From: Skeletonema tropicum
Lineage: Eukaryota; Bacillariophyta; Thalassiosirophyceae; Thalassiosirales; Thalassiosiraceae
Length of the DNA stretch: 64,000 nucleotides
Reading direction: 5' to 3'
Assembly: GCA_037178625.1 (NCBI GenBank)
Contig: CM074127.1
Coordinates: 2,294,001 to 2,358,000, forward strand
This document shows positions 4,138-52,300 of the stretch, one piece after another; positions within the stretch are counted from its first letter, which is position 1; every line of letters starts with the position of its first letter. The notes under the pieces are model-generated. The model did not search any database, was not told the origin of the DNA, and saw nothing but the letters and a program-made list of their open reading frames with translations. The position numbers were made by a program, and so were the translations under genes.

Positions 4138-4262
4138 ACGCCGCCTTGGCGTTACTCGGCGTTACTCGGCGTAATGGTTTTGCCGAGCGGCGTTACTCGG
4201 AGTTACTCGGAGTTTCTCGGCGTTACTCGGCGTTACTCGGCGTAACGGTTATGCCGAGCGGC
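4138..4262. repeat. Right subterminal array of 10-bp repeats, copy 1
   Basis: About eight GCGTTACTCG-type units, some altered (GAGTTACTCG, GAGTTTCTCG), mirror the left array in sequence and orientation. Confidence 0.75.
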
Positions 4263-4366
4263 AATCAAATTTTGGCGATAAAGATGTGCGTTGAATCTTT
4301 GGATAATATCTTACACATAGGTATGATCACAATAGGGGGCATTTATGGGCATAAAAATGGGAATGC

Positions 4367-4387
4367 AGCCCGCTTTCCCACTCTCTC
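4367..4387 (-). repeat. Right terminal inverted repeat, copy 1
   Basis: Inverted, it reads GAGAGAGTGGGAAAGCGGGCT and pairs with 135-155. Identity with copy 2 ends exactly at 4387/8858, which fixes the element end. Confidence 0.7.
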
Positions 4388-4605: not shown

Positions 4606-4626
4606 GGGAGCGCGGGAAAGGGGGCT
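4606..4626 (+). repeat. Left terminal inverted repeat, copy 2
   Basis: Identical to 135-155. Confidence 0.7.
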
Positions 4627-4724
4627 TGCGTACTTTTATTCGGCATCATCCGGCATTCAAAAGCAAAGTATCAATTGTCAAGTAGTCCCGTTTAAGGAAT
4701 TCAACGCATATCGCCAATTGATGT

Positions 4725-4850
4725 GCCGAGTAACGCCGAGTAACGCCGAGTAACGCCGACTGCGTTAATCGGCGTTACTCGGCGTTACTCTGCGTTACTC
4801 GAAACAACGGTTATGCCGCTCGGCATTACTCGGCATTACTCGGCATTACA
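4725..4850. repeat. Left subterminal 10-bp repeat array, copy 2
   Basis: Identical to 254-379. Confidence 0.75.
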
Positions 4851-5009
4851 TTATATGTCACCGGCATAACGATTATGCTGACGGCATATCAATTGACATG
4901 CTACCATGTGACAACTTCAGTCGCACCAACATTTACAGCAGCATCGCCAACTTCACAAACCAACTTGATAGAAGTGCTCATTTTGAGCAGCAGTTACTTC
5001 TAACCAACG

Positions 5010-5891: not shown

Positions 5892-6075
5892 GTTGTAAAG
5901 AAGTTGGTACTCCTACGACTTTGATCACGATGGAAAGTAATACTTATAATGAGATTAGATGTTTAAAGATAATCTATCTAAAAGTGCCAAGCAATTGATT
6001 CTTGAAAACGTGATGACATGAATACTAATAAATAATCACGGTTTCGAATGAAAGAAGAAATGTGGACCCCAAACG

Positions 6076-8254
6076 TTAAATATCATCAAACTTAGATGAT
6101 GAGATTGACATGCTCATGTTGTCGAAGTCATTATGCACAACAGAAACATCGTCTTCGTCTTCGTCCTTCTTTAGCTTGCCTTTCTTGTTCGCCCCGTTAT
6201 CGAGGATGGGGACGGAATAAGAATTGTTGTTGGCACGACGTGTAAGCTCGTTGTAGTCGAACTCCGCATTACGTTCTTCTTCGTCGTCGTCGTCGTCGTC
6301 AGAAGATTCATCGAAATTTTGGTACCTATTGCCAGTGCCATAGTGTGCATTTTGATACCGCGCAAGGTGATTAGGATGACGATGGTACTGAGGTTCAACC
6401 GATGAGACGTTCGACTGCTGGGGTTGTATATCGCCAATGAACTCGTACGGTTCGCCGTCGGGATCAAGAGCTCTCGCTTCCGCGGCTAGTTCAGCAAAGG
6501 TCACAGAATTGAATAGGTTGCCCTGATCATCGTACTGGTCATCAGCTGCAACATCATCGTGCTGACGAAGAAATGGAGAATTCCTGGACGCAGATCTGGG
6601 AGGTGAATTTGAGGCCGACCTGTTCCTAGGCCTAGGAGGCGTGCCTGACTGATGGAGGCTCACATTCACATTGGCCGAGTTGTTCCGAAGAGGTGAAAGT
6701 GTTCGTTGCTGGTGGAGCTCATTCACATTGGGGTTGGGCTGAGCTGCGTAATGTTGACGTTGGCTGCCGGGAATTTATTATAGAAGTAATGAGAGAGAAG
6801 AATTATCATTAGTATAACGACACGACCATCAAATCAAGCACTAAACACATTACAGCAGAGCACTTACCCACGTGGGCCAGCCCTATGATTCAATTGTGGC
6901 TGAAACGAAGGGTTAGAAGGGCGAAATGGAGGTCCAATTCCATGTCCAGAATGGAATGCACCGTAAGGATGAGGGGGTGGTCCACCTCCACCACCGCCAC
7001 CATAACCTCCTCCCCCACCACCGCCACCATAACCTCCTCCTCCACCACCGCCACCATAACCTCTTCCTCCACCACCGCCACCATAACCTCACCACAACCT
7101 CCTCCTCCACCACCACCATAACCTCTTCTTCCACCACCACCACCATAACCTCCTCCTCCTCTTCCTCCTCCTCCACCACCACCACTATGAGGGGGAAAGG
7201 GAGGTGGATTCCACGCCGCAGCAGGAGGGGGGACATGGCGATTGCGGGCGCAACCATCAACAATAGCCATTGGTGCAGAATGGAAGGCTTGAATCTCATC
7301 AGGAGTTGCGGACGAGTGAATAGCACAGACTTGCAGATGTTTCCAAGCAGTTTGACTCCTTCCGTCTGCCAGAAGCTCAAACTTGAGCCCATTTTCGATT
7401 TCTTCCTCACACTCGAGGACTTGATAAATGTAGCGATTTTTATCTTTCCGAAGCCTAAACCCCGCCTCATAGTCAGTGTGTTGACGAAGATGTTCTTTAT
7501 GATTCTGTACATGTGCCTCATTGCCTCTCATGTAGATCTGTTCACCATCGTAAGGTCCACCATCGACGATCATGTTACCACTGGTGTAAGCATTTTCAAC
7601 TGTTTCGTGATCATCGAAGGCGGTGGATCCATAACACTTGACGTGAATTAAATGTTTGTTGTCACTATCTCTTTGAACTTTGAGGTCATCAAGTGAGAAA
7701 GTGGAAGGAATGTCAACGTGGAACGTTTCAGTGTTATTGCCACTTCTAAACTGACAGGTAGGGAAATGGACTTGAGGGTTTGAGAGCTTTTTATTAGCCT
7801 GATCTTTGGTTTGGAGAGGGGCATAATTCATCTTGTTTGACGATTTCTCTGGACGTGGTGGTGGATCTACCTGAATGCTAGTACTTGTCTTACGACTTGA
7901 GGTTGATGTTCGTTTCGATGGCTTCTTGTTTGCGGAGGATGGAGGTGGAGGATATTCTTCGTCACTCTCTTCCTCAATTTGTTCACGTGCTAATGCAACA
8001 GCTTTGGCGAAATTTGATGTGAAGTGCCTGCTGCTGAAGTTGCAGCAGATGTCGTTGTATTTGTTGAAGAATTCGTGCGGCTCCGGTAGATCGACCGCTC
8101 CGATGATGGCTTGTTTGTACTCAGTTTTGAGGATCTTGACTATTTTCTTCACGTTTTCTGATGTATCGTAACTAAAAAATTCCCAGCCGCCTGCAGGTGG
8201 TGGTACGTCTTTGGCTGGCCTTGATCCGATGAAGTATAACGAAGGACGAGGCAT
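6076..8254 (-). CDS. Transposon second gene: Gly-rich protein, two exons, apparent frameshift (copy 2)
   Basis: Exon 1 is 8254-6868, the intron 6867-6764 and exon 2 6763-6076. The sequence matches the copy-1 gene, including the one-base slip in the Gly repeat near 7070-7090. Because both copies carry it, the slip predates their separation. It is either tolerated (the truncated 454-residue form functions), or it marks a parent copy that depended on protein supplied elsewhere. Confidence 0.6.
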
Positions 8255-8608
8255 TATTTATGAGCTCATGATGAAAATGAGGAGAGTGGAGCCATGAAAA
8301 CATCAAACATGATGGCAGGATTTTTTTGTTAAGAGCGCCGGCGCCTTTCAAATTATTTGTTTCGTCAGATGCAGACATATGACTGATGATTGCACAAAAG
8401 TCAAGAAAGCATCTTTTCAAGAATAGCATTATTTGATGCTTTTGGCACCAAGTGCAAAGAAAGCATCTTTCTGTTTAGTTTCGCCGCATACACGAGGGAT
8501 CGTTCCACATGAGTAATCTTCATGATTGTTTTGTTTGTTGTGGTCAGAGAGGGAAGTGGGTAGTGGGTGGCAACACTGTAACGTGTTACATCTGTGTGGC
8601 ACATCTTT

Positions 8609-8733
8609 ACGCCGCCTTGGCGTTACTCGGCGTTACTCGGCGTAATGGTTTTGCCGAGCGGCGTTACTCGGAGTTACTCGGAGTTTCTCGGCGTTACTCG
8701 GCGTTACTCGGCGTAACGGTTATGCCGAGCGGC
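8609..8733. repeat. Right subterminal 10-bp repeat array, copy 2
   Basis: Identical to 4138-4262. Confidence 0.75.
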
Positions 8734-8837
8734 AATCAAATTTTGGCGATAAAGATGTGCGTTGAATCTTTGGATAATATCTTACACATAGGTATGATCA
8801 CAATAGGGGGCATTTATGGGCATAAAAATGGGAATGC

Positions 8838-8858
8838 AGCCCGCTTTCCCACTCTCTC
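8838..8858 (-). repeat. Right terminal inverted repeat, copy 2
   Basis: Identical to 4367-4387. The unique flank starts at 8859. Confidence 0.7.
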
Positions 8859-33038: not shown

Positions 33039-34421
33039 ATGACAGAAGGCGGTAACTGGCCGCCAGAAATTGAGGCAGATTTCGAGAGAGTCAGTCCTCT
33101 TGGGAAGGGAGCTTTTGGTGTAGTGTGGCTTGCTAAGGCGAAGAACAACCATGCCGTGGTCAATTACGATGATGCCTCTGTGGACTCAGATGAGAAGGAA
33201 GACATGTTTCGTTCCACCCAACAGGCAGCGAAGTATCCAAAATATGTAGCAATCAAACAAATTCGTGCCTCGAATGAAGAAGAGATACTTTACGCAAACA
33301 GAGAGATCACTATATTACGTGAAGTTGATCATCCCAACATTGTCAGGTGTCTCCAATCAGTTGATATGAAAAACAGTAGGCTTGTAGTTTTAACACTCGC
33401 AAATGGACCCAATCTTGGAGAGCTCGTTGATGCTGGTGGTGCATTGAGCGTTTCACTAGCCCGACTTTCTGCGAGACATTTGATCGCAGCTGTGAGCTAC
33501 TTGCACAGTCGCGGTGTTATTCAGTAAGTACATGTTGGTAATGCTCTTGTCATCTGTAACTGCTATCTCAAAACAAATCATTTTATCAGCCGCGATATTA
33601 AACCAGACAATTGTATCATGATGAAAACTGATGATTCACTTATTCAGAAACAAACAAAGGAGGACTGGATGACAAACGATGCACTATGGGATGACAAAGC
33701 TGTATTTACGAATGAGTTTCGGCTTGTCTTGGTTGACTTTGGATTTGCTAAGGCCCTCACTCCAAAAGAGGTGGGTTTAGAACGCGATAGTTTTAGACAA
33801 GCAAGTGTAAGAAGTTTTGTTCAGAGAACAATTGAAGAAAAAGGAGATGTCGTGACTATTGCAAAAGACAACCCACAGAAAGCAAAAGCTAGGACTGCCA
33901 CAAAGCTATCAAAGTTGCATCGTGCAATGTCTGCCTTAGGTACGAGAAATTATGCTGCTCCAGAAGTCCAAAGAGTTCGAGACAAGAATGACGGCGAAAC
34001 TGCGCTCGCTGCATATGTAGCTGATTATGGTTTAATATCTGATGCTTACTCAGTTGGAGCAACTATCAAAATGATCCTGACAGGGGTGCCTGCAGGAGAA
34101 AATGAGATGGCTTTCATCAGTGCCAATGATCGTGCGATTGGCAACATCCTAGATGCAATCTGTGGCTGCAGAAAGAAGAATTCTAGAAAGCGTAGGAAGC
34201 GGTACAAGTTTCTTGATGAAGCGCCTAAACCAGCACGTGAGCTGGTTGGAAAATTGCTGAAGGTAAGAGAAGAAGAAAGGCTCACAGTTCCGTTTGCACG
34301 AGAAGAACCGTGGATCAAGGGAGGAACGGACAAAGACGACCCTGTTATTGAATTGCCTGCAGGAGATATCAATGCCGGGAATGATGATCCAATTGTCTGC
34401 TTAAAGTGTGCTGGGAACTGA
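33039..34421 (+). CDS. Eukaryotic-type Ser/Thr protein kinase
   Basis: Exon 1 is 33039-33523, the 66-bp intron 33524-33589 and exon 2 33590-34421, giving 438 residues. The kinase domain opens with the Gly loop GKGAFGVVW (22-30), the ATP lysine K73 (VAIKQI), helix C Glu (NREITIL), the catalytic loop HRDIKPDN (162-169, D164, restored exactly by splicing), DFG at 211-213 and APEV after a long activation region. The 110-residue insert between DFG and APE and the early 40-residue insert in the N-lobe are unusual. The C-terminus ends CLKCAGN. Predicted active; pathway unknown. Its last 170 bases are duplicated downstream at 36163-36333. Confidence 0.85.
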
Positions 34422-34884
34422 TAACGCGCTTGAATCTTCATCTAGCATTACAAGCCTGACTGTCCCCCAAGACGAAGTTAACGAATACTAGCCATCAGTT
34501 GGACTAATACCCCGCCTAGCTCTGGCCTCCATTGTACTTAACCTACTCAACAACAAAACCAAGTCCTTGATGCCCTCAATCAAGAGATACACAGAGGCTT
34601 GAACTCGAACCTACCTACGTACCTACTTCTAAGTACCTAGAAGTACCTACCTGAGAACTGAGATCGACGTAGATTCTATAGATAGATAGATAGAGATTAT
34701 TTTATTCACTACTCCGTAGATAAGACCTAACAGTACCATACTATTGATTTTTTATGTACGTTAGATTTTTTTGGCACCTTTTAGTTTGTTTCAACAACTT
34801 CTTTTCGTTTTAGCTCTTTGCACTTTCCGCTTCCGATGAAAATGAATTCATTGTCACCGGCTGACATCATTATTACAGTCGATC
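34422..34884. other. Kinase-carrier intergenic region with simple repeats
   Basis: 463 bp. It contains CTACCTACGTACCTACTT-type repeats with an imperfect hairpin (34625-34645), then a short GATA run (34680-34698). The GATA run differs between this region and its copy at 36334-36797. No gene. Confidence 0.5.
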
Positions 34885-36154
34885 ATGAGCGATAATGATG
34901 GTGGCGGTGGCAGTCAAATCTCTGCCTTAGACGATCTTCTAGCCGGGGGCATTGCCGGGTCTGCTAGTGTCATAGTCGGACGTGAGTTGGATCTTTTATC
35001 CATTATACGTTTGCTATGCAATTTTTGATTTTTGCACATGAGAAGCAAGAACTGCATCGTCTAACAACTTGATTTCCTTTCCTATGTTTTTCTTCCACTG
35101 CTCAGACCCATTTGACACTATCAAAGTTCGTCTTCAAACTTCTTTTGCAAATGATAGTGGCAAAAAGACTTCATCGTCGTCAGCCGCATCAGGCGGATTC
35201 AAATCTCTCTTCAAAGGAATGTCACCGCCTCTGGCAACTGCTGCTATATGCAATGCCATAATTTTTGCATCTTATGGTCATTCTACGAGGTTATGGGATG
35301 AATATGTCGAACATAAAGGTATTGAACAACAACATGATGAAATACACGGGACTGTGACAGGCGCTGTATTGATTGAGCATGGAGAACATGGAACTCACGA
35401 GCAAGTGAAGACTTTGAAACAACATGGAAATAACAATAATCATGATTCTAAAGACAGCGTTAAGATACAATGCAATCAAGAGGATTCAATTGGATCATCT
35501 CAGCAAACAGAGGACGCACTAAAGACTTCATCAACCGAGCAAAATTATTTGAAAGTATTCACTTGTGGTGCGCTGGCTGGTACCGTTCAGGCATTTGTCA
35601 TCTGTCCAGTGGAGCATATCAAATGTCGGCTGCAAATTCAAGCAACGTCGGGAACCAAACAACTGTACAAAGGACCAATAGATGCATGTGTGTCAATAAT
35701 TAAGAACCACGGTATCTTCCGAGGCTTATATCGAGGTATGGGTGTTACTCTCTGGCGCGAGACGCCTGCCTTTGGAATGTACTTCGCTGTGTATGATGAA
35801 ATTAAAGATCGCGTCGAAAGTCTTCTAGAAGAGAAGGATGATGATCATCCGATCCCATCTCATGCACACGCTTGGGCTGCATCGGCTTTAGCTGGAGGAA
35901 TTTCAGGTGCTTCGACGTGGGGCATCATATACCCATTTGACGTGATAAAAAGTCATATGCAGACTTCACCGTTGGAGCGACATCTTCAAAAGGGGATGTG
36001 GACAGTGGGAAGTGATATTATCAGAGATCATGGGTTCAAGCACATGTTTCGGGGATTGGGAGTTACTTTAGTGAGAGCTTTCCCTGTGAATGCAATTATC
36101 TTTCCAGTGTATGAATTTGTTCTGATGCAAATTGGAAGCTGGAAATCAAGATAA
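34885..36154 (+). CDS. Mitochondrial carrier family (SLC25) transporter, copy A
   Basis: Exon 1 is 34885-34981, the 124-bp intron 34982-35105 and exon 2 35106-36154, giving 381 residues. There are three carrier repeats with signatures HPFDTIKVRLQT (His codon split by the intron), CPVEHIKCRLQIQ and YPFDVIKSHMQT, each a P-x-D/E-x-x-K/R motif. The layout suggests an acylcarnitine/basic amino-acid-type carrier of the inner mitochondrial membrane, but the substrate is not certain. A hydrophilic insert of about 70 residues (HDEIHGTVTG ... SSQQTEDALK) separates repeats 1 and 2, longer than usual. It differs from copy B at two residues: Ser versus Cys near residue 24 and Ile versus Thr before the third signature. 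Confidence 0.88.
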
Positions 36155-36162
36155 GGATGCAA

Positions 36163-36333
36163 AAATTGCTGAAGGTAAGAGAAGAAGAAAGGCTCACAGT
36201 TCCGTTTGCACGAGAAGAACCGTGGATCAAGGGAGGAACGGACAAAGACGACCCTGTTATTGAATTGCCTGCAGGAGATATCAATGCCGGGAATGATGAT
36301 CCAATTGTCTGCTTAAAGTGTGCTGGGAACTGA
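36163..36333 (+). pseudogene. Duplicated 3' tail of the protein kinase gene
   Basis: Copy of 34251-34421 encoding the last 56 or so residues of the kinase (KLLKVREEERLTVPFARE to the stop). It has no promoter or start of its own and lies directly after carrier copy A, so it is a non-functional by-product of the duplication. Confidence 0.85.
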
Positions 36334-36797
36334 TAACGCGCTTGAATCTTCATCTAGCATTACAAGCCTGACTGTCCCCCAAGACGAAGTTAACGAATAC
36401 TAGCCATCAGTTGGACTAATACCCCGCCTAGCTCTGGCCTCCATTGTACTTAACCTACTCAACAACAAAACCAAGTCCTTGATGCCCTCAATCAAGAGAT
36501 ACACAGAGGCTTGAACTCGAACCTACCTACGTACCTACTTCTAAGTACCTAGAAGTACCTACCTGAGAACTGAGATCGACGTAGATTCTATATAGATAGA
36601 AGTAGATAGATTATTTTATTCACTACTCCGTAGATAAGACCTAACAGTACCATACTATTGATTTTTTATGTACGTTAGATTTTTTTGGCACCTTTAGTTT
36701 GTTTCAACAACTTCTTTTCGTTTTAGCTCTTTGCACTTTCCGCTTCCGATGAAAATGAATTCATTGTCACCGGCTGACATCATTATTACAGTCGATC

Positions 36798-38060
36798 ATG
36801 AGCGATAATGATGGTGGCGGTGGCAGTCAAATCTCTGCCTTAGACGATCTTCTAGCCGGGGGCATTGCCGGGTGTGCTAGTGTCATAGTCGGACGTGAGT
36901 TGGATCTTTTATCCATTATACGTTTGCTATGCAATTTTTGCACATGAGAAGCAAGAACTGCATCGTCTAACAACTTGATTTCCTTTCCTATGTTTTTCTT
37001 CCACTGCTCAGACCCATTTGACACTATCAAAGTTCGTCTTCAAACTTCTTTTGCAAATGATAGTGGCAAAAAGACTTCATCGTCGTCAGCCGCATCAGGC
37101 GGATTCAAATCTCTCTTCAAAGGAATGTCACCGCCTCTGGCAACTGCTGCTATATGCAATGCCATAATTTTTGCATCTTATGGTCATTCTACGAGGTTAT
37201 GGGATGAATATGTCGAACATAAAGGTATTGAACAACAACATGATGAAATACACGGGACTGTGACAGGCGCTGTATTGATTGAGCATGGAGAACATGGAAC
37301 TCACGAGCAAGTGAAGACTTTGAAACAACATGGAAATAACAATAATCATGATTCTAAAGACAGCGTTAAGATACAATGCAATCAAGAGGATTCAATTGGA
37401 TCATCTCAGCAAACAGAGGACGCATTAAAGACTTCATCAACCGAGCAAAATTATTTGAAAGTATTCACTTGTGGTGCGCTGGCTGGTACCGTTCAGGCAT
37501 TTGTCATCTGTCCAGTGGAGCATATCAAATGTCGGCTGCAAATTCAAGCAACGTCGGGAACCAAACAACTGTACAAAGGACCAATAGATGCATGTGTGTC
37601 AATAATTAAGAACCACGGTATCTTCCGAGGCTTATATCGAGGTATGGGTGTTACTCTCTGGCGCGAGACGCCTGCCTTTGGAATGTACTTCGCTGTGTAT
37701 GATGAAATTAAAGATCGCGTCGAAAGTCTTCTAGAAGAGAAGGATGATGATCATCCGATCCCATCTCATGCACACGCTTGGGCTGCATCGGCTTTAGCTG
37801 GAGGAATTTCAGGTGCTTCGACGTGGGGCATCACATACCCATTTGACGTGATAAAAAGTCATATGCAGACTTCACCGTTGGAGCGACATCTTCAAAAGGG
37901 GATGTGGACAGTGGGAAGTGATATTATCAGAGATCATGGGTTCAAGCACATGTTTCGGGGATTGGGAGTTACTTTAGTGAGAGCTTTCCCTGTGAATGCA
38001 ATTATCTTTCCAGTGTATGAATTTGTTCTGATGCAAATTGGAAGCTGGAAATCAAGATAA
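36798..38060 (+). CDS. Mitochondrial carrier family (SLC25) transporter, copy B
   Basis: Exon 1 is 36798-36894, the 117-bp intron 36895-37011 and exon 2 37012-38060, giving 381 residues. Same gene as copy A with Cys in GIAGCASVIVG and Thr in STWGITYPFDV. Both frames are intact, and the full upstream region was duplicated too, so both copies can be expressed. Thr at the third repeat looks closer to what carriers usually have before YPFDV, so copy A may carry the newer change (inference). Confidence 0.88.
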
Positions 38061-38136
38061 GGATGCAATACAGCAAATATCGTGATGTGTGACTGTATCA
38101 GACTGGCAATGTGGACACAATTTTGAAGTAATTATT

Positions 38137-40789: not shown

Positions 40790-40805
40790 TAAAACTCTCA
40801 GATCA
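40790..40805 (+). repeat. Target-site duplication, left copy
   Basis: TAAAACTCTCAGATCA, identical to 49408-49423. It marks the left boundary of the LINE. Confidence 0.85.
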
Positions 40806-40898
40806 CAATCCGCGCTGAATTGTCGAAAAATATTGAAAAATGGGAAAATAATTGCTACGTAGGAACTAGTACACCTCGTACAGAGATAGATAATAACC

Positions 40899-41837
40899 AT
40901 GGCGGCCGGAACAGCCACCGAACACACCTTAGCATTACTAGGAGACATTAGAAATAATTCTTTAAAACATACAGGGGACACGACAACGATGAGAGCTACA
41001 TGGTTGAAAAACAGTATCAGAATTCGTTTGTTACTAGAGGAGATAAAGAGAATCGATGGAAAATTGGTCACGGCGTTGATGTTACACGTCGTCGGGCAGA
41101 GACACAGGAGACGATATCATGGAGAGACGACCATGCATGGAACGGATAGAAGGCAGGGAATTTGGCAGGTAATTTTTGTAAAGAAGACATTAGTTGGATG
41201 GGCACCGATGGAGGATATGGATATGATGGATAAGAAATGGGAGGGAACATCCCACCGGAGATGGGATTACCAGCATCATGGAGAGGGAGCACCAGTTACG
41301 GCAGTGGACCAGTTTAGGAAAATAGCAGGTTTATTACCAGAACCCCCCCCGAAGCCGCCGTGGCCACCCCCTGCCAGGGGTGGATTGGGAAAAGCAGAGA
41401 GGATTGTGCAGATTACCTTCTGGCGGGTAATTAAAAAAGCCAGCAGCCACAAACGGCACAGCAGTTTAGAGATCGACAATCTCATTGGTCGTGCCACCTT
41501 AATCGACAATTGTTTCCGTATTAGCATGAACAACAATAATGTCATCAGCACAAACAACAACAGTGTCATTAACAACTTCCTCGACGATGGGGAAACAACT
41601 TTTTCTGTGCCAGATACAGGTGTCACGCAGCAGATTTCGAGACATCTGAGTAGCAGGTATTACAGTATTAGGAGAGGCAACACCAAAAGCTTTCTTCAAT
41701 GTAGTTTAGGTGATTCTTACCAAGAAAAGTTGGATGATAGTGCTCGTATGAACGACTTCGCTCTGGCCTCACAAGCCACGGCAGAGATGCAGGACGCCCC
41801 TCCACGTTTTACGCGTGTTGTGGGGCGAGCGGTGTAA
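40899..41837 (+). CDS. LINE ORF1 protein
   Basis: 312 residues, ending in TAA at 41835-41837, whose last base is the first base of the ORF2 ATG. Position and order make it the ORF1 protein, which in LINEs coats the RNA. No RRM or CCHC knuckle is visible. It is basic, with RHRRRYHG, a Pro-rich stretch (PEPPPKPPWPPPARGG) near the middle and an Asn-rich part (MNNNNVISTNNNSVINN). RNA binding is therefore inferred, not seen. Confidence 0.7.
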   Translation: MAAGTATEHTLALLGDIRNNSLKHTGDTTTMRATWLKNSIRIRLLLEEIKRIDGKLVTALMLHVVGQRHRRRYHGETTMHGTDRRQGIWQVIFVKKTLVGWAPMEDMDMMDKKWEGTSHRRWDYQHHGEGAPVTAVDQFRKIAGLLPEPPPKPPWPPPARGGLGKAERIVQITFWRVIKKASSHKRHSSLEIDNLIGRATLIDNCFRISMNNNNVISTNNNSVINNFLDDGETTFSVPDTGVTQQISRHLSSRYYSIRRGNTKSFLQCSLGDSYQEKLDDSARMNDFALASQATAEMQDAPPRFTRVVGRAV

Positions 41838-44800
41838 TGGATCCACGGCAGCCTCCACCCTCCTTTGCCCGGGAGGCCGAGGTGAGCCATTTCAGACAGA
41901 GGCAACGTGAATATAAGTCTAATAGGCCATCCAAAACAAAGAAGAAGAAGAAGTCAGCACAAAGAGCACAACAATATCGAGATTCTATGAGACGCCGCAA
42001 CACCATTGCAGGAGGAACCAAGCTGGAGGATGCGTTGGATACAGACACAATGAGGCAGTTGCTAGCGGATCGTACAAGACAACGCGATGATCCATCCAAC
42101 AGGGAGCTTGACGAGTTATTGGAGTCGCAGCAGCATAGATCTACTGAGCTGGACGGCCTGCGGTCGGACGGCCTAGATAATAAGGCAGACAATTGCTCAG
42201 TGAGCAGCATCAAGGTGCCGGTGTACGGCCCGCTTAGGGTGGCCCACAAAGGACACGAGACGGTTCGAGTATTGTCCATGAACATCAATGGCCTCAGCCT
42301 GTGGCAGCCCAACAACACCAAGATAGAACGACTGAAGCACGTGCTACGAGAATACAGGGTCGACGTGTTGGGGCTCCAAGAGACCAACACCAATTTTCGG
42401 GCGTTAAATCCATCCTTACAGATTGCTAACACCCTTCGGCACGGAGATGATAGAATTGCATCGGTTCATGCTCACAATACGCGGGAACTCCACAACATCG
42501 GGAACTTCCAAGCAGGGGGGACAGCGGTGGTTCTGAGAGAAGAATTGGCGGGCCTACCTACCACTAGGGGGCAGGATGAAACGGAGCTAGGCATGTTTTG
42601 CTGGTACCGCACCGAGCCGACAAATGGAGTGGGAACGGTGTTCATCTCAGCGTATGCACCCTGCCGCTCGGAAGGGGTTGGCACCTACTACCAACACATC
42701 GTGAGGTACATTCAATCCCATCAATTCGATACAAACCCCAAAGACCTATTTCGTCGAGAGCTCGTCGCGGCCATTATAAAGTGGAGGACATTAGGAGATC
42801 GAGTGGTACTAATGATGGATGCTAATGAGAATGCACTGGACGGCGAATTGAGCAGGCGGCTAGCAGGCAATGACATCAACATGCGAGAGGCTGTTCACAG
42901 AATCATGCCTGGACAGAAAGGGCCCTTCACACACTTCAGAGGCAACGACAATGGAAATGGGGCGATTGACGGTATTTGGGTGTCAGACGATATCGAACTG
43001 ATCAGCGCTTGTTACCTCCCCTTTGATCCAGACTTGGGAGATCATCGGCCGGTGGTGGTAGATTTGCAAACCAGATCCGTCCTTGGCACTGCCCTCTGTC
43101 GTATTGTGCCTCCAAAGGCCAGGAAGTTGAACTCAAAGGTCCCGCGGGTACGAGACAAATATCTCGAGTTAGTAAGAAAGGGTTTCCACGAGAAACAGAT
43201 TGACCAAAAACTCTCCGAGTTAGAGGCTCTTGCCTCCTTCCCGCCTGACGCAGAATTCATTGCCCAGATGGAAACACTGGACAACATTGTCGAAGATGTA
43301 CTCTTGTACGCGGAGTCCAAGTGCAGAGTCCTTTATCCAGCTCATTATGAATATTCTCCAGCGATACAATCTTGGTTAGATAAACGCCACCTCCTGAAAT
43401 GGATACTACGGCACCATCTAGGGAAGCAGGTCAATATGGGGAATATGCGGAGATTCGCAAAAAGGAGAGGTCTAGAACAGTGGCTGTCTACCCCCGTTCC
43501 GGAACTGGTGGACTTGTATCGAAGCACAAAAGAGCATACGAGACAGCTACTGGCGGATTCTCCCTACTTGCGGAAGCACTTCTTAAATGAGAAACTCAAC
43601 GAGGCAATAGCAAATGAGAGGGAAGCAGAGGCAGTCAGAGTGAAAGCCATCCTCAGAGGTGAGGCACAGCGCAAGTGTTGGCAAGGCATCAAAAGAGCCA
43701 CAAAGGCTAAGGAAGTGATGAGTGTAACAAGAGTGGAGGTCGTGCAGGACGATGGTTCAGTGGTTGAGCATACGGCCAAAGAGTCGATTGAGGAGGCGCT
43801 GAAGACCGAGCTGCGAACAAGATTTGGACGGGCCACCTCTGCACCGATTTGTCAAGGTGCTCTATTTGAACTACTGGGTAATTTCGCCGACACATCAGCC
43901 GCAGTAGAGATTCTGGAAGGCACGTTTGTGCCACCACCAGACACGGATCCTCGGACGCTCCTCTTATTCGATGAAATGGCCTCGATCTGGTCCCGGATGG
44001 GAAACGGGGAGATCTCGATCTCGGTGTCACAAGAGGACTTTCAGTACTACTGGCGACACGTGAAGGAAAGAACTTCTTCCTCCTTATCGGGGATTCATTT
44101 TGGGCACTACAAGTCGATGGCACATGATGACAAATTGTCACAGCTGATGGCTAGGAAATTGTCTCTGACCACCACAACTGGAGCAAGTCCTGATAGATGG
44201 GCACGAGGACTGTCTGTAATGCTGGAAAAAATCGCAGGGGTAGCTGTGGTGAACAAATTGCGTGCCATCCTCCTACTGGAAGCAGACTTCAACTTCTGCA
44301 ACAAACTCATTTTCGGGCACAGGATGATCAATTCAGCGAGAGAGGAAGGCATGATTCCAGAGGAGATCTTCAGCTCCAAAGGGAAAACCGCAGAGGACGC
44401 CATTCTGCAGCAGGTTTTACTTTATGACATCGCCAGGGTCACCAAACGCCCGCTTCTAGTTGCTCAAGTCGATGCGGCACAGTGCTATGACAGGGTGGCC
44501 CTTCCAGCCGCTAGTCTCACCCTCCAAGCGTTCAAAGTTCCAAACTGTGCAGTACTGTCGATGCTACGTCCCCTTCACAACATGGAGTTCTTCCTGCGTA
44601 CAGGCTACGGGCAATCTGAATCTTACTTCGGCGGGAAAGAGGACGGCAAGCAGGGGCTCGCTCAAGGTAATGGCGCGGCTCCTGCCACTTGGCAACAGAC
44701 GAGTACCACGATAGTAAATGTGCAACGTCGGAGCGGACACGGTGTTACGATAGAATGCCCAATAACTAGGAAATCTGTCCGGCAGGTGGGGATCCTGTAC

Positions 44801-47800
44801 GTTGACGACACCAACCTTTGGGCTGGTTTGGACGAAGATGATGACCTGTTCTCGACAGCAGCTAAAGGCCAAGCCTCAATCTCGGATTGGGGGGGATTAC
44901 TCGGAGCGACAGGGGGTGCTTTAAAAGGCGAGAAGTGTGGGGTAACTATCCATCATCAATCAGCGGACGGCAAAGGGGGATGGGTGTATACTGATCAGCA
45001 ACAGCGACGGCAGGGAGAGACAGACGGAGCCGAGATGGAGGACAATGATCTGTCCTCGCTAGCCTTCCATGTCCCGACAACCTCAGGAGCTACGGAACCA
45101 ATCGACAAACTCCCTACCAATAAGGCAGACAACAACCTCGGATTATTTGCCAGACCAGATGGAAAGGCGGATCAGCATTTCGAACAGATGAAAGAAAGAG
45201 TGACAACGTGGACCGCTCAGATTAAAAGTGGGCACATCCCGGTTAGGTCGGTCTGGATGAGCTACTCCTGCCAACTGTGGTCAGGATTGCGCTATGGTCT
45301 TGGGGCATGCTCGGCACCAATTGCTGAGCTAAAAAAGGGATTGTCTTCTGCGGATTTCTATCTTCTCAGCAGCCTCGGGGTTACCCGTTCTATCACCAGA
45401 GAATGGAGGTATCTTCCACCAGCATTTGGAGGCATGGGCCTCAATGATCTGACAATCGAGACAACGGCCGCTACACTCGCGTCTTTCCTTCAGCATTACG
45501 ATGACAAACCCCATCCAGCGGTGAAGGACCGTCATCTTGGATTTACGTTGAGTGTGGTCATTCGTCATCTGCAAATTGAATTGGGGGTACCGGACTGTCC
45601 TTTTAGCTATGACTTCCGTACGTGGGGGCATCTTGCAACCGACTCGTGGATCAAATCATTTTGGGAAAAACTTGACGAGCTGGGGATTACTCTTGACTTG
45701 CGGTGTGACGATATCCCACTCCCTCGGAGAGGGGACAAGGTCATCATGCACATGATGGTTGAAATGGGCTTACGAGGGAAAGATCTGTTGCGTGTTAACA
45801 GAGTCAGAAAGGCACAAGAGGCTCTCTTCCTCTCTGACATCACTTCGGCCAATGGAAAATACCTGGAGAAGCACTTACTGGACGGGCACTGGATGGACTC
45901 TGAAGAAGGACTGTTAGGGAAGCATAGGTCTGGACTGCTCTTCGGCCCAGAATTTCCATCTGCGGCAGATTTCAAACTATGGAAAAAATATCTGCTCCAG
46001 ATCGCACCGCTCAATCTGATGCTGGAGGAGCCGTTGAGGGAATGGCTACATCCTTCACATAGGAAATGGAGGCATTTCTGGAACACCGAAACCTTCGCAG
46101 TGGAGATACATACTGACAGCACGATCCAGGAATACGTGCACGACAGGGACTCCGGAGATAGATCACACGTGCTCCACCCGTCAAGACAGCTAGATAGACC
46201 CTCCACCACCTTGGCTCCAGCTACCATCCTTGAATACGACAATGGTTCAGTTAGACTGATGCAGAGAGGCCCACCTCTCGTGGCAGCACCAGGTCATACA
46301 GTCTTTGCTTCATTCTGGGAGAGGCTATTTAGCAAAGGAGGCACGTGGATGTGGCAGGATTTGGCAGGTCAGGAAGATCCAGCATGGATAGTGGAGGCCA
46401 TACACAGAGGATCTCTCTTCTGTTGCACAGATGGTTCTTATATCAAAGAGATTTCAGTGGACGTCTGCGGGGCGGCTTGGATTATGTACTGCGAGGAGAC
46501 GGGGAAGTCATTGCAAGGTGATTTTACGGAGAGATCCAAATGGGCAGGCAGCTATAGAGGGGAGCAGCTGGGGATGTTAGCCATCCATATCTTACTGCTG
46601 ACGGCCGAGGAGCACTACGAGATTCTTTCCAACGCCAACATTTTCTGCGACAATCTAGGGACAATCCACACCTTTTCGACGAAGTATGCCAGGATCGCAG
46701 CTGCGGCCAAGAACAACGATATTCTACGGGTGCTGCGGAAGATACAGTCTCGCTCCAAACTGGTTCACAGACTGTCTCACGTTAAGGCACATCAGGACGA
46801 CATAGTGGGCTACGATGCATTGTCGATAGAGGCACAGCTCAATGTTATCTGTGATGACAGAGCCAAACGGGCTTTGCGGCGGGCAGTGAATACGACGGCA
46901 GCCCACCCTGCAACGCTATCGCTACCTCTCGAGTCAGCGGTGGTAATTATCGGCAATGAGAAGCAAACCGCGGATATGGCCAAAGAACTCCGTTACTACA
47001 TTGGCAAAGAAAGAGCAAAACAGTTCTACTCCGATGAAGGACTCATGTCACCCTCTATCTTCGACACCGTGGCATGGGAGCCCCTGCGGGATCTTCTAGG
47101 GCGTCGGCCTCAGATGTTCAGACTTTGGTACGCCAAGCAGTGTTCTGGTTTCTGCGGCACTGGCCAAATGATTACTAGATGGGACAAGGAAGCCTCAGCG
47201 TTGTGTCCCAACTGCGGGTGTTACGAAACGGCTGACCACCTGAATCGGTGTACAAGTGACATTAGACGGGGATTACTCAGCGACTGCATTGAGAATTTAT
47301 TGGACTGGATGAGAGACCACCACACCCACCCCGACCTAATGATTTGGATCCCAAGGTTTATTGCAGCCCAAGGCAAGCGATTGTTTGTGGACCTGCCGGA
47401 CAAGTATGGCGACAGTATGTCCCAGGAAACGAGACAAGTTGGTAATAGTTTGGATAGAATCGGATGGAGACATTTCACGGAGGGAAAAGTGTCCGTCGGG
47501 CTTCTACAACTGCAACAAAATTATCTTCTGGGCATGCGGCTCCGGCTGACCATCGACAGTTGGACGAAGGGCTTCCTGGACCAGCTACTCTCCCTCACGC
47601 ACACCCAATGGATTTGCAGGAACCTCACCAAACACCACAAAACCAAAGGCACGAAGGTCCTGGCTTCGAGAGAACAAATCCAGAAAGAGATAGAGCACCA
47701 ACTTAGTTTAGGAACTGACGGCCTGCCGGAAGAAGCTAGATGTCTGCTGGAAATCCAACCGGAGGAACTTTTTGCCAAGAGCACTGAGCAACAACAGTAT

Positions 47801-49192
47801 TGGTTGAATGCGGCGGTGGCGAGTAGAGAAGCGGCCGGAGACCTCACGGGAGGTAGACTGGACAATGAAAATCCGTCGATGGCTCAACCAAGGACCGCTC
47901 CACAGGAAACAGACGTGACAGCAGCCACTAGCACCGACAAGACGACTGCCACGAAGGCTCCTTTGCGTTTTGCCCCTATCTTTCAGCAGCAACTTCGGGC
48001 AGAAGCTCGGGCCTCCTCCACCCGGCAGAGGCCAAGGCTACCGCCAGACCTAGGGACGCAACGCACCGATTGTCTGGAGCTGCTACGACGTAATACGGAT
48101 GAAGAGACAAGGACATTCTCCCCAAGGGACCTCTTCAGAGCGGTCCCCGAGACTTTCACCCTTGACATGGCAGGAGGAGATAAGGTTCACCGGGAAGCAA
48201 TGCTCTCACTGCGACCACCACAATGGCTAAACGACGAAATCATCAACAGTTTCCTCCGCAGGGTTCTCTTTCCAAAGGTGAACTCCCAACGGGTCTACTT
48301 CTTCACCTCCTTCTTCATGTCAGCACTCCTTCAGACTGGGACAGACGGGCAATCAATACCCATCTACAACTACAACAATGTGCGCTCCTGGGGCAATACG
48401 TTGAGACGGAAGAACGGGATCTTGGGGGTGCGGGAGATATACGTGCCGATTAACCGGGGTAATCGCCATTGGTTGCTCCTCAAAGCCGACACCGTCCTCA
48501 AGGAGATTAAACTGTGGGATTCCCAGGGCAGGAAGGAGTATAACCAGCGGTACCTAAGGGCTATGCTGCAGTATCTCAAGGATAAGTATCGAGAAATACA
48601 TGGGGAGGCGAACGCTGATTGGGACAACTCTTGGCGACTCATCGATGACTCAATGAACTCTCCACGGCAGACCAACGGATATGATTGTGGTCTCTTTGTC
48701 CTCGTCAACGCAACCCTACTGGCACAAAACATCCCTCTGTGCGAGAATTCCTACAACCAGGCGGACTTCCTCCTCAAAGAGACTAGGATGAGGATCGCAA
48801 TGTTGCTGTGGTCTAGCAGCAGGAATCAACCAAGAGCTCCTGCCGCAGCAAGACTGCCTAGCCGATCGAATTCAACGGGTGGCAAGCGCAAGAGTGGTCA
48901 CCTCGCAGCGGGCAAGCCTATCCCCAAGCCGGTCAGGGTAAAGACGGCTGGCTCAGGTTCATCGTGCAAGGAGCGCAATAAACGACGGAGAAAGGACAAG
49001 CGGATTATCCCAGGCGGCCCCAAAACTAGAGGTAAAGTCCACGGGGACGACCCAACTCCAATGCAGCAGACAGAGTCCCTCCTTAATCAGAAAAGGAGCG
49101 CTGCATCGCTCGCTGTTGGGGATTCAACACTTCAGGCCACTACCCAAAGACACGCACCTCCCAAGCGGAAGAAACGGAAGCTGCCAACCTGA
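41837..49192 (+). CDS. LINE ORF2 polyprotein: endonuclease, reverse transcriptase, RNase H, CCHC, Ulp1 protease
   Basis: 2451 residues. Order of domains: basic N-terminus (SKTKKKKKSAQRAQQ). APE-type endonuclease about 140-410 (LSMNINGL, GLQETN, MMDANENA, GDHRPVVVDL). Reverse transcriptase about 780-1050 with AQVDAAQCYDRV and the catalytic YVDD in GILYVDDTNLW. RNase H about 1525-1680 with D in CTDGSYI, E in YRGEQLG, D in FCDNLGTI and D in CDDRAKRAL. CX2CX7HX3C knuckle about 1789-1804. Ulp1/SENP-type C48 cysteine protease about 2110-2310 (WLNDEIINSFL, His in NRGNRHWLLL, Asp in LWDSQG, Gln and Cys in RQTNGYDCGLF). Basic, nuclear-signal-like tail (KRKKRKLPT). All catalytic residues seen are intact. 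Confidence 0.9.
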   Translation: MDPRQPPPSFAREAEVSHFRQRQREYKSNRPSKTKKKKKSAQRAQQYRDSMRRRNTIAGGTKLEDALDTDTMRQLLADRTRQRDDPSNRELDELLESQQHRSTELDGLRSDGLDNKADNCSVSSIKVPVYGPLRVAHKGHETVRVLSMNINGLSLWQPNNTKIERLKHVLREYRVDVLGLQETNTNFRALNPSLQIANTLRHGDDRIASVHAHNTRELHNIGNFQAGGTAVVLREELAGLPTTRGQDETELGMFCWYRTEPTNGVGTVFISAYAPCRSEGVGTYYQHIVRYIQSHQFDTNPKDLFRRELVAAIIKWRTLGDRVVLMMDANENALDGELSRRLAGNDINMREAVHRIMPGQKGPFTHFRGNDNGNGAIDGIWVSDDIELISACYLPFDPDLGDHRPVVVDLQTRSVLGTALCRIVPPKARKLNSKVPRVRDKYLELVRKGFHEKQIDQKLSELEALASFPPDAEFIAQMETLDNIVEDVLLYAESKCRVLYPAHYEYSPAIQSWLDKRHLLKWILRHHLGKQVNMGNMRRFAKRRGLEQWLSTPVPELVDLYRSTKEHTRQLLADSPYLRKHFLNEKLNEAIANEREAEAVRVKAILRGEAQRKCWQGIKRATKAKEVMSVTRVEVVQDDGSVVEHTAKESIEEALKTELRTRFGRATSAPICQGALFELLGNFADTSAAVEILEGTFVPPPDTDPRTLLLFDEMASIWSRMGNGEISISVSQEDFQYYWRHVKERTSSSLSGIHFGHYKSMAHDDKLSQLMARKLSLTTTTGASPDRWARGLSVMLEKIAGVAVVNKLRAILLLEADFNFCNKLIFGHRMINSAREEGMIPEEIFSSKGKTAEDAILQQVLLYDIARVTKRPLLVAQVDAAQCYDRVALPAASLTLQAFKVPNCAVLSMLRPLHNMEFFLRTGYGQSESYFGGKEDGKQGLAQGNGAAPATWQQTSTTIVNVQRRSGHGVTIECPITRKSVRQVGILYVDDTNLWAGLDEDDDLFSTAAKGQASISDWGGLLGATGGALKGEKCGVTIHHQSADGKGGWVYTDQQQRRQGETDGAEMEDNDLSSLAFHVPTTSGATEPIDKLPTNKADNNLGLFARPDGKADQHFEQMKERVTTWTAQIKSGHIPVRSVWMSYSCQLWSGLRYGLGACSAPIAELKKGLSSADFYLLSSLGVTRSITREWRYLPPAFGGMGLNDLTIETTAATLASFLQHYDDKPHPAVKDRHLGFTLSVVIRHLQIELGVPDCPFSYDFRTWGHLATDSWIKSFWEKLDELGITLDLRCDDIPLPRRGDKVIMHMMVEMGLRGKDLLRVNRVRKAQEALFLSDITSANGKYLEKHLLDGHWMDSEEGLLGKHRSGLLFGPEFPSAADFKLWKKYLLQIAPLNLMLEEPLREWLHPSHRKWRHFWNTETFAVEIHTDSTIQEYVHDRDSGDRSHVLHPSRQLDRPSTTLAPATILEYDNGSVRLMQRGPPLVAAPGHTVFASFWERLFSKGGTWMWQDLAGQEDPAWIVEAIHRGSLFCCTDGSYIKEISVDVCGAAWIMYCEETGKSLQGDFTERSKWAGSYRGEQLGMLAIHILLLTAEEHYEILSNANIFCDNLGTIHTFSTKYARIAAAAKNNDILRVLRKIQSRSKLVHRLSHVKAHQDDIVGYDALSIEAQLNVICDDRAKRALRRAVNTTAAHPATLSLPLESAVVIIGNEKQTADMAKELRYYIGKERAKQFYSDEGLMSPSIFDTVAWEPLRDLLGRRPQMFRLWYAKQCSGFCGTGQMITRWDKEASALCPNCGCYETADHLNRCTSDIRRGLLSDCIENLLDWMRDHHTHPDLMIWIPRFIAAQGKRLFVDLPDKYGDSMSQETRQVGNSLDRIGWRHFTEGKVSVGLLQLQQNYLLGMRLRLTIDSWTKGFLDQLLSLTHTQWICRNLTKHHKTKGTKVLASREQIQKEIEHQLSLGTDGLPEEARCLLEIQPEELFAKSTEQQQYWLNAAVASREAAGDLTGGRLDNENPSMAQPRTAPQETDVTAATSTDKTTATKAPLRFAPIFQQQLRAEARASSTRQRPRLPPDLGTQRTDCLELLRRNTDEETRTFSPRDLFRAVPETFTLDMAGGDKVHREAMLSLRPPQWLNDEIINSFLRRVLFPKVNSQRVYFFTSFFMSALLQTGTDGQSIPIYNYNNVRSWGNTLRRKNGILGVREIYVPINRGNRHWLLLKADTVLKEIKLWDSQGRKEYNQRYLRAMLQYLKDKYREIHGEANADWDNSWRLIDDSMNSPRQTNGYDCGLFVLVNATLLAQNIPLCENSYNQADFLLKETRMRIAMLLWSSSRNQPRAPAAARLPSRSNSTGGKRKSGHLAAGKPIPKPVRVKTAGSGSSCKERNKRRRKDKRIIPGGPKTRGKVHGDDPTPMQQTESLLNQKRSAASLAVGDSTLQATTQRHAPPKRKKRKLPT

Positions 49193-49407
49193 GGCCACAT
49201 GCAGGCTATTTCCCTTCGTGTTAGCAGATGCACTCTCACCTGGTTTCGAACGCTCCGGCGTTTAAGAGGAGCACCCGGCTCCTACGGGGGCACCCGTCTT
49301 GCTGTCTGGTAAGCCTTTCGGCAGTAAAAGACCGTACATTGTACCTAAGCAGGTCCAGATTATACTCGTGTAGATATCTAATCTGATTAATTTTGTATTT
49401 ATTTATT
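49193..49407 (+). other. LINE 3' untranslated region
   Basis: 215 bp after the ORF2 stop. A stretch near 49258-49315 (GGCGTTTAAGAGGAGCACCC to GGGGGCACCCGTCTTG) can form a GC-rich stem. The end is a T-rich/ATTT run. The reverse transcriptase would recognise this part (inference). Confidence 0.55.
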
Positions 49408-49423
49408 TAAAACTCTCAGATCA
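49408..49423 (+). repeat. Target-site duplication, right copy
   Basis: TAAAACTCTCAGATCA, identical to 40790-40805. Its last part (CTCTCAGATCA) is also the start of the satellite unit. Confidence 0.85.
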
Positions 49424-52300
49424 GCTACGAGGCAGTAGCACTCTTACTTTTGCTGATCATATGCGAGAGTCGTACCACTGAGACTAGTGTGACAAAATCC
49501 GTCTGAGCAGTGCAACTATGTCACGATACTATCGACAACAGGAAAATGGGCCACTAGAAGCGGCTCATGCGCATACTGATAAAGATAGATATGATGTGGT
49601 AGAAGGAAATGGTGCAACCCAAAAGAGACCTATCAGCTACGAGGCTGAAACATCTATTCAAAGATAGCAAAACTTCTGATAGCAAAAATGTACTTCAAAA
49701 CAATCGCCACAGACTATGAAAGGCCACTAGAAGCGGCTCAGGCACTTATCGACGACGATAGATGCGATATGGTTCAATGATTTGCAGCTGGTCAGCCCAC
49801 ACTGGACCTCTCAGATCAGCTACGAGGCTGTAGCATCGCTTCTACGAACGCCAAACGTCTGAGCAGTGCTAATGTGCTTGTATACTATCCCCGCCGACTA
49901 TAATGGGCCACTAGAAGCGGCTCATGCGCGTAATGATGAAGATAGTTACGATTTGGTAGGATGTGGGCTGCTGGCCAGCCCACACTGGACCTCTCAGATC
50001 AGCTACGAGACAGTAGCATCTTTTCTACGCACGCCAAACGTCTGAGCAGTGCTAATGTGCTTATATACTATGACCGCCGACTATAATGGGCCACTAGAAG
50101 CGGCTCAGGCACTTATCGACGACGATAGAAGCGATACATGGTTCATTTTGGTGCTGCTGGCCAGCCCACACTTGATCTCTCAATTGATCTACGACCTGTA
50201 GCATGGCTTCTACCAGGGCAACCCTTCTTTGACGTTCTAATGAGCTTCTATGGCTTCGTTACCGACTATAATGGGCCACTAGAAGCGGCTCAGGCACTTG
50301 TCGACGATAGGTACGATTCTTTGGTAGGTTGTGGTGCTGCTGGCCAGCCCACACTGGACCTCTCAGATCAGCTACGAGACAGTAGCATCGCTTCTACGAA
50401 CGACAAACGTCTGAGCAGTGCTAATGTGCTTATATACTATCACCGCCGACTATAATGGGCCACTAGAAGCGGCTCATGCGCGTAATGACGACGATAGATG
50501 CGAAACATGGTTCATTGTGGTGCTGCTGGTCAGCCCACACTGAATCTCTCAGATCCGATACGAGACAGTAGCATCGCTTCTACTCACGCCAAACGTCTGA
50601 GCAATGCTAATGTGCTTGTACACTATCACCGCCGACTATAATGGGCCACTAGAAGCGGCTCATGCGCGTAATGACGACGATAGGTACAGTTTGGTAGGAT
50701 GTGCTGCTGCTGGCCAGCCCACACTGGACCTCTCAGATCAGAGCAACGAGACAGTAGCATCTTTTCTATGCACGCGAAACGTCTGAGCAGTGCTAATGTG
50801 CTTGTGTACTATCACCGCCGACTATAATGGGCCACTAGAAGCGGCTCAGGCACTTATCGACGACGATAGAAGCGATACATGGTTCATTTTGGTGCTGCTG
50901 GCCAGCCCACACTGGATCTCTCAATTGATCTACGACCTGTAGCATGGCTTCTACCAGGGCAACCCTTCTTTGACGTTCTCATGAGCTTCTATGGCTTCGT
51001 TACCGACTATAATGGGCCACTAGAAGCGGCTCATGCGCGTAATGACGACGATAGGTACGATTCTTTGGTAGGTTGTGGTGCTGTTGACCAGCCCACACTG
51101 GACCTCTCAGTTCAGCTACAAGACAGTAGCATCGCTTCTACGAACGACAAACGTCTGAGCAGTGCTAATGTGCTTATATACTATCACCGCCGACTATAAT
51201 GGACTACTAGAAGCGGCTCATGCGCGTAATGACGACGATAGAAGCGATACATGGTTCATTGTGGTGCTGCTGGCCAGCCCACACTGGACCTCTCAGATCA
51301 GCTACGAGACAGTAGCATGGCTTCTACTCACGCCAAACGTCTGAGCAATGCTAATGTGCTTGTGCACTATCACCGCCGACTATGAAAGGCCACTAGAAGC
51401 GGCTCATGCGCGTAATGACGACGATAGGTACAGTTTGGTAGGATGTGCTGCTGCTGGCCAGCCCACACTGGACCTCTCAGATCAGCTACGAGACAGTAGC
51501 ATCTTTTCTATGCACGCCAAACGTCTGAGCAGTGCTAATGTGCTTGTGTACTATCACCGCCGACTATGAAAGGCCACTAGAAGCGGCTCAGGCACTTATC
51601 GACGACGATAGAAGCGATACATGGTTCATTTTGGTGCTGCTGGCCAGCCCACACTGGACCTCTCAGATCAGAGCAACGAGACAGTATCATCGCTTCTATT
51701 GGGGAATTTCTTCTCCGACGTTCTCTTGAGCTTCTATGGCTTCGTTACCGACTATAATGGGCCACTAGAAGCGGCTCAGGCACTTGTCGACGACGATAGA
51801 TGCGAAACATGGTTAATTGTGGTGCTGCTGGCCAGCCCACACTGGACCTCTCAGTTCAGCTACGAGACAGTAGCATCGCTTCTACGAACGACAAACGTCT
51901 GAGCAGTGCTAATGTGCTTATATACTATCACCGCCGACTATAATGGACTACTAGAAGTGGCTCATGCGCGTAATGAAGACGATAGTTACGATTTGGTAGG
52001 ATGTGGTGCTGCTGGCCAGCCCACACTGGACCTCTCAGATCAGCTACGAGACAGTAGCATCGCTTCTACTCACGCCAAGTGTCTGGGCAGTGCTAATGTG
52101 CTTGTGTACTATCACCGCCGACTATAATGGGCCACTAGAAGCGGCTCATGCGCGTAATGACGACGATAGGTACAGTTTGGTAGGATGTGCTGCTGCTGGC
52201 CAGCCCACACTGGACCTCTCAGATCAGCTACGAGACAGTAGCATCGCTTTTGTCAGCGTATCTTTGTTTGACGTTCTCATTAGCTTCTATAGGATCAATT
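49412..52300. repeat. Satellite array, about 15.5 units of 183-188 bp
   Basis: The anchor GGCCACTAGAAGCGGCTCA (or a close variant) recurs near 49551, 49724, 49908, 50091, 50276, 50460, 50646, 50832, 51017, 51203, 51390, 51574, 51762, 51948 and 52132. Units also share CAGCCCACACTGGACCTCTC, AGCTACGAGACAGTAGCAT and ACGTCTGAGCAGTGCTAATG. At least three units (ending near 50270, 51010 and 51755) carry a different segment (TTTGACGTTCT, GAGCTTCTATGGCTTCGTTA), giving a mixed higher-order pattern. Periods that are not multiples of three break every frame, so the array is not coding. The first two units are the most diverged. Confidence 0.9.

Follow-up and report, generated by a model that had tools for sequence, protein, structure and literature searches.

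Why should a retrotransposon encode a protease of the class that removes the small ubiquitin-like modifier (SUMO) from proteins? The question is raised by a 64,000-nucleotide stretch of the diatom Skeletonema tropicum (GenBank assembly GCA_037178625.1, contig CM074127.1, positions 2,294,001 to 2,358,000, forward strand; hereafter the window), which contains a long interspersed nuclear element (LINE) whose second open reading frame (ORF2) ends in a Ulp1/SENP-type cysteine protease domain (Peptidase_C48, here C48). An original prediction, made from the letters alone, had placed in one 2451-residue frame at 41837..49192 an APE (apurinic/apyrimidinic) endonuclease, a reverse transcriptase (RT), an RNase H, a CCHC knuckle and this protease. 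The position and length of the frame are exact, ORF2 being a single frame of 2,451 codons on the plus strand, but the mobile unit is larger, spanning 40806-49407. The reading favored here, to which we give a probability of roughly 0.6, is that the element belongs to a recently active LINE clade that acquired a C-terminal Ulp1/SENP protease, most simply once, and that would use it to remove SUMO from the proteins its particle meets.

Protease domain of ORF2

The original prediction had pointed to a profile search as its check, and had named loss of the catalytic triad in related copies as the outcome that would speak against it. A Pfam scan of the whole window ORF2 protein matches Peptidase_C48 over residues 2129-2305 with an E-value (E) of 2.3e-22 and a score of 80.4 bits, over the curated cut-off of 20.7. 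The signature motifs listed beforehand are present, from the first Trp to the Cys (Table 1), and the catalytic His, Asp, Gln and Cys are kept in 16/16 complete C48 domains, so that loss of the triad is not borne out. Trp2130 and Trp2212 lie at what we take to be the positions that would hold Gly-Gly. The closest matches to the predicted structure are SENP5, SENP2, SENP1 and Ulp1; the window domain resembles SENP1, SENP2, SENP5 and yeast Ulp1 in sequence, fold and catalytic residues, but unlike them it is part of a 2,451-residue LINE protein.

Selection on the domain can be read from a second family in the host genome, F2, which has the same layout and 65% protein identity. Between the window family and an F2 copy (65.6% protein identity, with synonymous sites saturated), the nonsynonymous divergence (dN) is 0.283 for C48, 0.246 for both RNase H and the zinc region, 0.195 for RT and 0.190 for APE; the linker and the tail have values of 0.663 and 0.461. 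These rates indicate that C48 is under long-term purifying selection, with a constraint almost that of RNase H. (Between F1 and F1b copies L009 and L010, C48 has 5 synonymous and 0 amino-acid changes; the 3' part is near-identical throughout, so this comparison is little informative.)

An assembly or frame artefact that joined a LINE to a neighboring SENP gene is refuted, as the same fusion is found at many sites across the 125 contigs of the assembly and also in proteins from other datasets. Chance fusion is also excluded, because the fusion recurs in 16 of the 61 LINE-type relatives in a protein collection and in repeated copies within the host genome; the combination of domains originally described is thus real.

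Table 1. Positions of the LINE, its parts and its borders in the window
Feature	Position	Strand	Details
Left target-site duplication copy, 16 bp	40790..40805	+	exact repeat of 49408-49423
Whole LINE, 8,602 bp	40806..49407	+	bounded by shared first base and target-site duplication
5' untranslated region, 93 bp	40806..40898	+	from element start to ORF1 ATG
ORF1, 312 codons	40899..41837	+	Pro-rich motif PPPKPPWPPP
TAATG, ORF1 stop/ORF2 start overlap	41835..41839	+	kept among copies
ORF2	41837..49192	+	2,451 codons
APE-type endonuclease	42272..43024	+	PF03372 (Exo_endo_phos) E 5.9e-11, residues 146-396
Reverse transcriptase	44255..44839	+	RVT_1 E 7.4e-6, residues 807-1001, below curated cut-off; YVDD at 988-991
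RNase H	46430..46855	+	D1532, E1576, D1605, H1652, D1673 invariant in 24/24; 3' of RT
CCHC zinc knuckle	47204..47251	+	C1790/C1793/H1801/C1805, invariant in 24/24; 3' of RNase H
Ulp1/SENP-type cysteine protease (Peptidase_C48)	48221..48751	+	His2211, Asp2228, Gln2278, Cys2284; Trp2130, Trp2212
Basic C-terminal tail	48812..49189	+	possible nuclear localisation signal, judged by eye
3' untranslated region	49193..49407	+	ends TATTTATTTATT; same or nearly same tail in copies reaching the 3' end
Right target-site duplication copy, 16 bp	49408..49423	+	exact repeat of 40790-40805

Copies of the element in the host genome

Searching the host genome assembly (G000; 78.4 Mb, 125 contigs) gives at least 19 scored ORF2 matches. 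Nine of the 19 copies have exactly the same first base as the window element, and five of these nine extend to the 3' end, with one falling 5 bases short of it. All 5/5 copies that are complete at both ends are flanked by target-site duplications of 14-18 bp, at five different sites; variable-length duplications, dispersed sites and the absence of a long terminal repeat are features of a LINE, as is the presence of RT and endonuclease within one ORF2. With 99.1-99.9% identity between the window copy and each of the four other complete copies, the family is young. A stop-free full-length frame is present in 11/19 matches, four of which are F1b. A search with the C48 domain yields 153 matches; counted among the matches listed, at least 21 full-length domains are of the window type (F1b included; 97-100% identical) and at least 39 are of the F2 type (about 64% identical). 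The further copies that the original prediction suggested seeking are thus present in the host genome, and the same fusion is found in the Skeletonema marinoi protein P0006. By these sequence features, the window element is an autonomous, recently active LINE.

ORF1 of the window has no Pfam domain; its homologues in other datasets are five proteins, one of which is 45% identical over the full length. The ORF1/ORF2 junction GGTGTAATGGAT is present in 12/12 readable F1 copies and in the single F2 copy read, and GAGTAATGGCC, with the same kind of overlap, is present in 4/6 F1b copies. SART1 is a TAATG-linked, telomere-specific LINE that is not known to have a protease; the window LINE shares the TAATG overlap and has the protease.

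Several copies depart from this pattern. Tandem duplications of ~277 bp lie within ORF1 (element bases 467-742) in L004, L006 and L019 and are seen as an internal repeat in protein P0065; the F2 ORF1 of L040 also has an internal repeat. F1b (L009-L012, L015, L016) looks chimeric, its ORF1 being a different protein of at least 561 codons. The synonymous divergence (dS) between L009/L010 and the window copy falls along the protein, from about 1.36 at the N-terminus through 0.38-0.42 in APE and the next stretch, 0.15-0.22 in RT and after, and 0.09 in RNase H to 0.01-0.04 beyond. The F2 copy at G000:C7:3836421-3843038 lies within a 3,474-codon open frame, ~1,000 codons longer than the others. At L018, a window-type copy stops where an antisense LINE tail starts and an F2-type C48 lies on the opposite strand; an F2 element was therefore probably inserted into this copy.

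Other domains of ORF2

Conservation of the remaining domains was read from an alignment of 24 proteins. The APE residues E182, D328, N330, D402 and H403 are invariant (24/24), and the sole exception among the catalytic positions examined is residue 149, which is Asn in 19 proteins and Gln in 5. The RT residues D879, D990 and D991 are likewise invariant in 24/24. The RT is strongly diverged, and therefore no RT in the Protein Data Bank (PDB) is matched by either the window sequence or the 24-protein profile, the top profile match being AP endonuclease 2 (E 0.047). The RNase H of the original prediction is borne out by its invariant D-E-D-H-D set and by PF00075 matches in 5/9 RNase H segments scanned (best 1.3e-5); the window's own segment is not among the five, and RNase H in the window protein itself gives no Pfam match. 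The predicted CCHC knuckle is fully conserved. Past this knuckle, W1909, W1925, R1928, H1933 and W1989 are invariant in the 24 proteins, in a stretch (residues 1909-1989) with no named domain. Tails of the form NxKRxAxS that resemble the window's are found in P0006, P0010 and P0012.

Origin of the fusion

Of 64 related proteins found, 61 are LINE-type, and 16 of these are C48-positive by precomputed Pfam annotation. In an RT tree built by a quick method from 62 rows (the 61 LINE-type proteins and the window protein), one 22-row clade with a support of 100 in the SH-aLRT (approximate likelihood-ratio test) takes in all 17 C48-bearing LINE proteins. The alignments of the other five members stop at window residues 1428-1776, short of C48, so that every clade member whose frame extends far enough has the domain. 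Outside the clade, C48 is annotated in 0/40 rows, 35 of which align beyond residue 1970. In a careful tree of 30 chosen rows, from which truncated and most distant rows were excluded, the 15 C48 rows form one clade (100/100, and in 100% of bootstrap trees). The named members of the clade, both from the Thalassiosirales, are P0006, in which C48 is present, and P0011 (Mediolabrus comicus), whose frame stops before it. Read from these trees, C48 was most simply acquired at the C-terminus of ORF2 once.

Capture of C48 by other transposon types, such as Ginger1 and Mutator (passages of PMC2836005), could suggest that it is a passenger without function for the element; this is highly improbable here, where the domain is present in every sufficiently long clade member, has kept its catalytic residues and has a dN near that of RNase H. 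Taken together, these comparisons argue that C48 very probably has a function in the element and that the window LINE carries a complete, conserved Ulp1-class protease that is probably active.

The host genome also contains three standalone C48 ORFs (L042-L044) of about 280-300 codons, which are 36-40% identical and closest to the LINE domains (L042:824-1717); these are candidates for a domesticated or donor gene. The C48 tree places them together with the LINE domains (99/96) and next to the subclade of the window element (87/94). The approximately unbiased test does not reject LINE monophyly (p-AU 0.168), and because of this the tree does not tell whether the standalone ORFs are donors or descendants. 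The C48 domains of an integrase-type element and of a Helitron fall outside the LINE clade. The former (L041:795-6022) has a 319-codon frame with a weak integrase-core (rve) match (E 1e-4, below the cut-off) and a frame of 1,410 codons with C48 at its end; the C48-carrying elements of the host genome are thus of at least two kinds. The Helitron-type protein P0063 combines C48 with a UCH deubiquitinase. No confirmed relative was found in the viral contig collection, nor any for the C48 domain in phages.

A ubiquitin-like domain in a sister subclade

Seven of the 22 clade members (P0012-P0017 and P0021), which form one well-supported subclade, have an N-terminal ubiquitin-like domain, followed by a basic stretch and then by APE. 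Three copies of the domain are present in P0012, two of them with TGG at the end. (The second P0012 segment is half-length and has no TGG; it was left out of the alignment and of the PF00240 scan.) PF00240 matches 8/8 complete segments at E up to 1, the best at 1e-6; whole P0012 scores above the cut-off (27.4 versus 25.4 bits), while the third segment, taken singly, falls short of it (21.5). In PDB, single ubiquitin chains are matched at E 0.008 and weaker, and the stronger E-values come from repeated ubiquitins. Assignment of this domain to the ubiquitin family is therefore made with moderate confidence.

Mature SUMO has TGG or a close variant at its end, which is where Ulp1 enzymes cleave. 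TGG ends 8/8 aligned segments, followed by A, G or T and then by G, and the seven proteins all have the motif in the same position. Invariant columns number 9/76, and the final three of these are T, G and G; the chance of the last three columns all being invariant is ~1 in 840 (9x8x7 over 76x75x74), which is a guide only, as the segments were located by motif. C48 is present in 6/6 of these proteins that reach that far; P0021 stops earlier. One branch of the LINEs may tentatively be proposed to encode a private SUMO-like system in cis, with the TGG ubiquitin-like domain and the Ulp1-type protease at the two ends of one polyprotein. If this is true, a cut after TGG would split the N-terminal part from the enzymatic ORF2 protein (ORF2p) and set free a mature modifier that the element itself encodes and that might be conjugatable; proteolysis would then take the place of the proposed reinitiation at TAATG in the window family.

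From this subclade it might be argued that the whole clade depends on an element-encoded SUMO-like tag, matured and recycled by the protease and either lost or separately encoded elsewhere. The distribution of the domain is in keeping with such a tag, as it is found within the clade and a seven-protein profile detects it in 0/55 other LINE rows, including the 40 rows outside the clade. However, it is not found in window ORF1/ORF2, the F2 copy or the F1b ORF1, and P0014 matches the host genome from residue 249 on only (18 candidates scored), with the result that the TGG subclade itself is not found there. This proposal thus seems quite unlikely. A ubiquitin-like domain in the window element was considered and dropped, there being no profile match in ORF2 and no Pfam match in ORF1.

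Residues 1-400 of P0012, used as a protein query, find only P0012, P0014 and P0015 among the matches listed. P0010 has LTGGG at the corresponding place and no profile match. A strong ubiquitin-family match in the host genome, at G000:C17:1489198-1489410, lies in a 1,585-codon open frame, the longest frame of that genome to contain a match of this family.

Proposed function

SUMO removal by the LINE protease could proceed as follows. ORF2p would be made by termination-reinitiation at TAATG, would nick DNA and copy the RNA by target-primed reverse transcription, and would carry to the site of retrotransposition, in cis, a Gly-Gly-specific protease of the SUMO class. There the protease could strip SUMO or a similar modifier from the element's own ORF1p/ORF2p or from host repair or silencing factors at the target. 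In the TGG-domain subclade the same enzyme would most likely also cut the polyprotein after TGG, self-cleavage being directly predicted for that group; for the window family, the enzyme class points to host proteins, or to SUMO attached to proteins of the element, as the likely substrates.

Several points weigh against this reading. The predicted structure of the RNase H has a pLDDT (predicted local distance difference test) of 35, and a profile of the RNase H region against PDB gives chance-level matches only (RNase H at E 0.86, an unrelated toxin family at E 0.64). If the five truncated frames are scored as lacking C48, six label changes are needed on the 62-row tree. Solely the enzyme class suggests deconjugation of host proteins. 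Finally, the N-terminal region of the window subclade has, by eye, no conserved Gly-Gly site; because of this and of the lack of a ubiquitin-like domain described above, the window sequence names no substrate for the protease.

The proteases of adenovirus and Maverick elements are polyprotein processors, and C48 might work in the same manner, cutting ORF2p at short Gly-rich sites with no need of a ubiquitin-like domain. ORF2 is very long (2,451 residues), and C48 is flanked on both sides by fast-evolving stretches, as would suit such cleavage; we regard this as unlikely, if less so than the clade-wide tag.

A SUMO-class protease is kept under selection in this LINE clade, so that the question of whether SUMO removal aids retrotransposition can be put to a genetically separable test. 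The TGG domain of the relatives predicts a specific cut site. Capture of Ulp1 by DNA transposons, together with the integrase-type C48 element of the host genome, suggests that mobile elements of different kinds may share a need for it.

Comparison with known systems

The passages of PMC4640811 describe the nematode non-LTR (long terminal repeat) retrotransposons NeSL and Utopia-1_TSP, in which, as in the window LINE, a LINE polyprotein is fused to a Ulp1-like cysteine protease. In these elements the protease is N-terminal, whereas in the window LINE it is C-terminal, after RT. NeSL/Utopia have a restriction-like endonuclease (RLE), and the lineage is tied to fixed targets, spliced-leader or U2 genes; the window LINE has APE plus RNase H and its family is at five different sites. 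(No RLE is found in window ORF2 by Pfam; the short RLE motif was not separately searched.) The protease is thus kept in a LINE clade with a different endonuclease and the reverse domain order. APE LINEs with RNase H, such as the I group and others, share with the window LINE the presence of APE, RT and RNase H in one ORF2, a separate ORF1 and target-site duplications, but the same passages mention no Ulp1 domain in these elements. In Ginger1 and Mutator, Ulp1 is also part of a transposon protein, and in Ginger1 it is C-terminal (passages of PMC2836005); those proteins are, however, DNA transposases rather than products of retrotransposons.

In the portion of the open-access literature covered, with Repbase outside the search, no description was found of an APE and RNase H LINE with Ulp1, nor any report of a ubiquitin-like domain in a LINE. 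The novelty originally suggested therefore appears to hold for a clade with APE, RNase H and Ulp1 but not for Ulp1 in a LINE as such, which NeSL/Utopia-1_TSP already illustrate (PMC4640811, in the passages cited). What appears to be new is an APE and RNase H LINE with a C-terminal Ulp1; what was known is Ulp1 in LINEs of other endonuclease, domain order and target behavior.

Insertion site and other features of the window

The window LINE is inserted at the edge of a 186-bp tandem repeat (49424-52290), for which Tandem Repeats Finder (TRF) gives 13.7 copies at 49722-52249. This satellite is scattered through the host genome, where a 371-bp query gives 341 matches; contigs C2 and C1 carry long arrays of it at or close to their starts. 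Targeting of the satellite was considered and dropped, as no satellite was found flanking the other four copies in which both ends are present; L014, which is not complete at both ends, has satellite within its 3' flank.

Elsewhere in the window, a 4.25-kb direct duplication (135-4387 and 4606-8858) is 99.98% identical, and a 1.9-kb unit is duplicated head to tail (34250-36162 and 36162-38068, 99.1%), each unit having a 356-codon ORF that resembles a mitochondrial carrier (named by eye).

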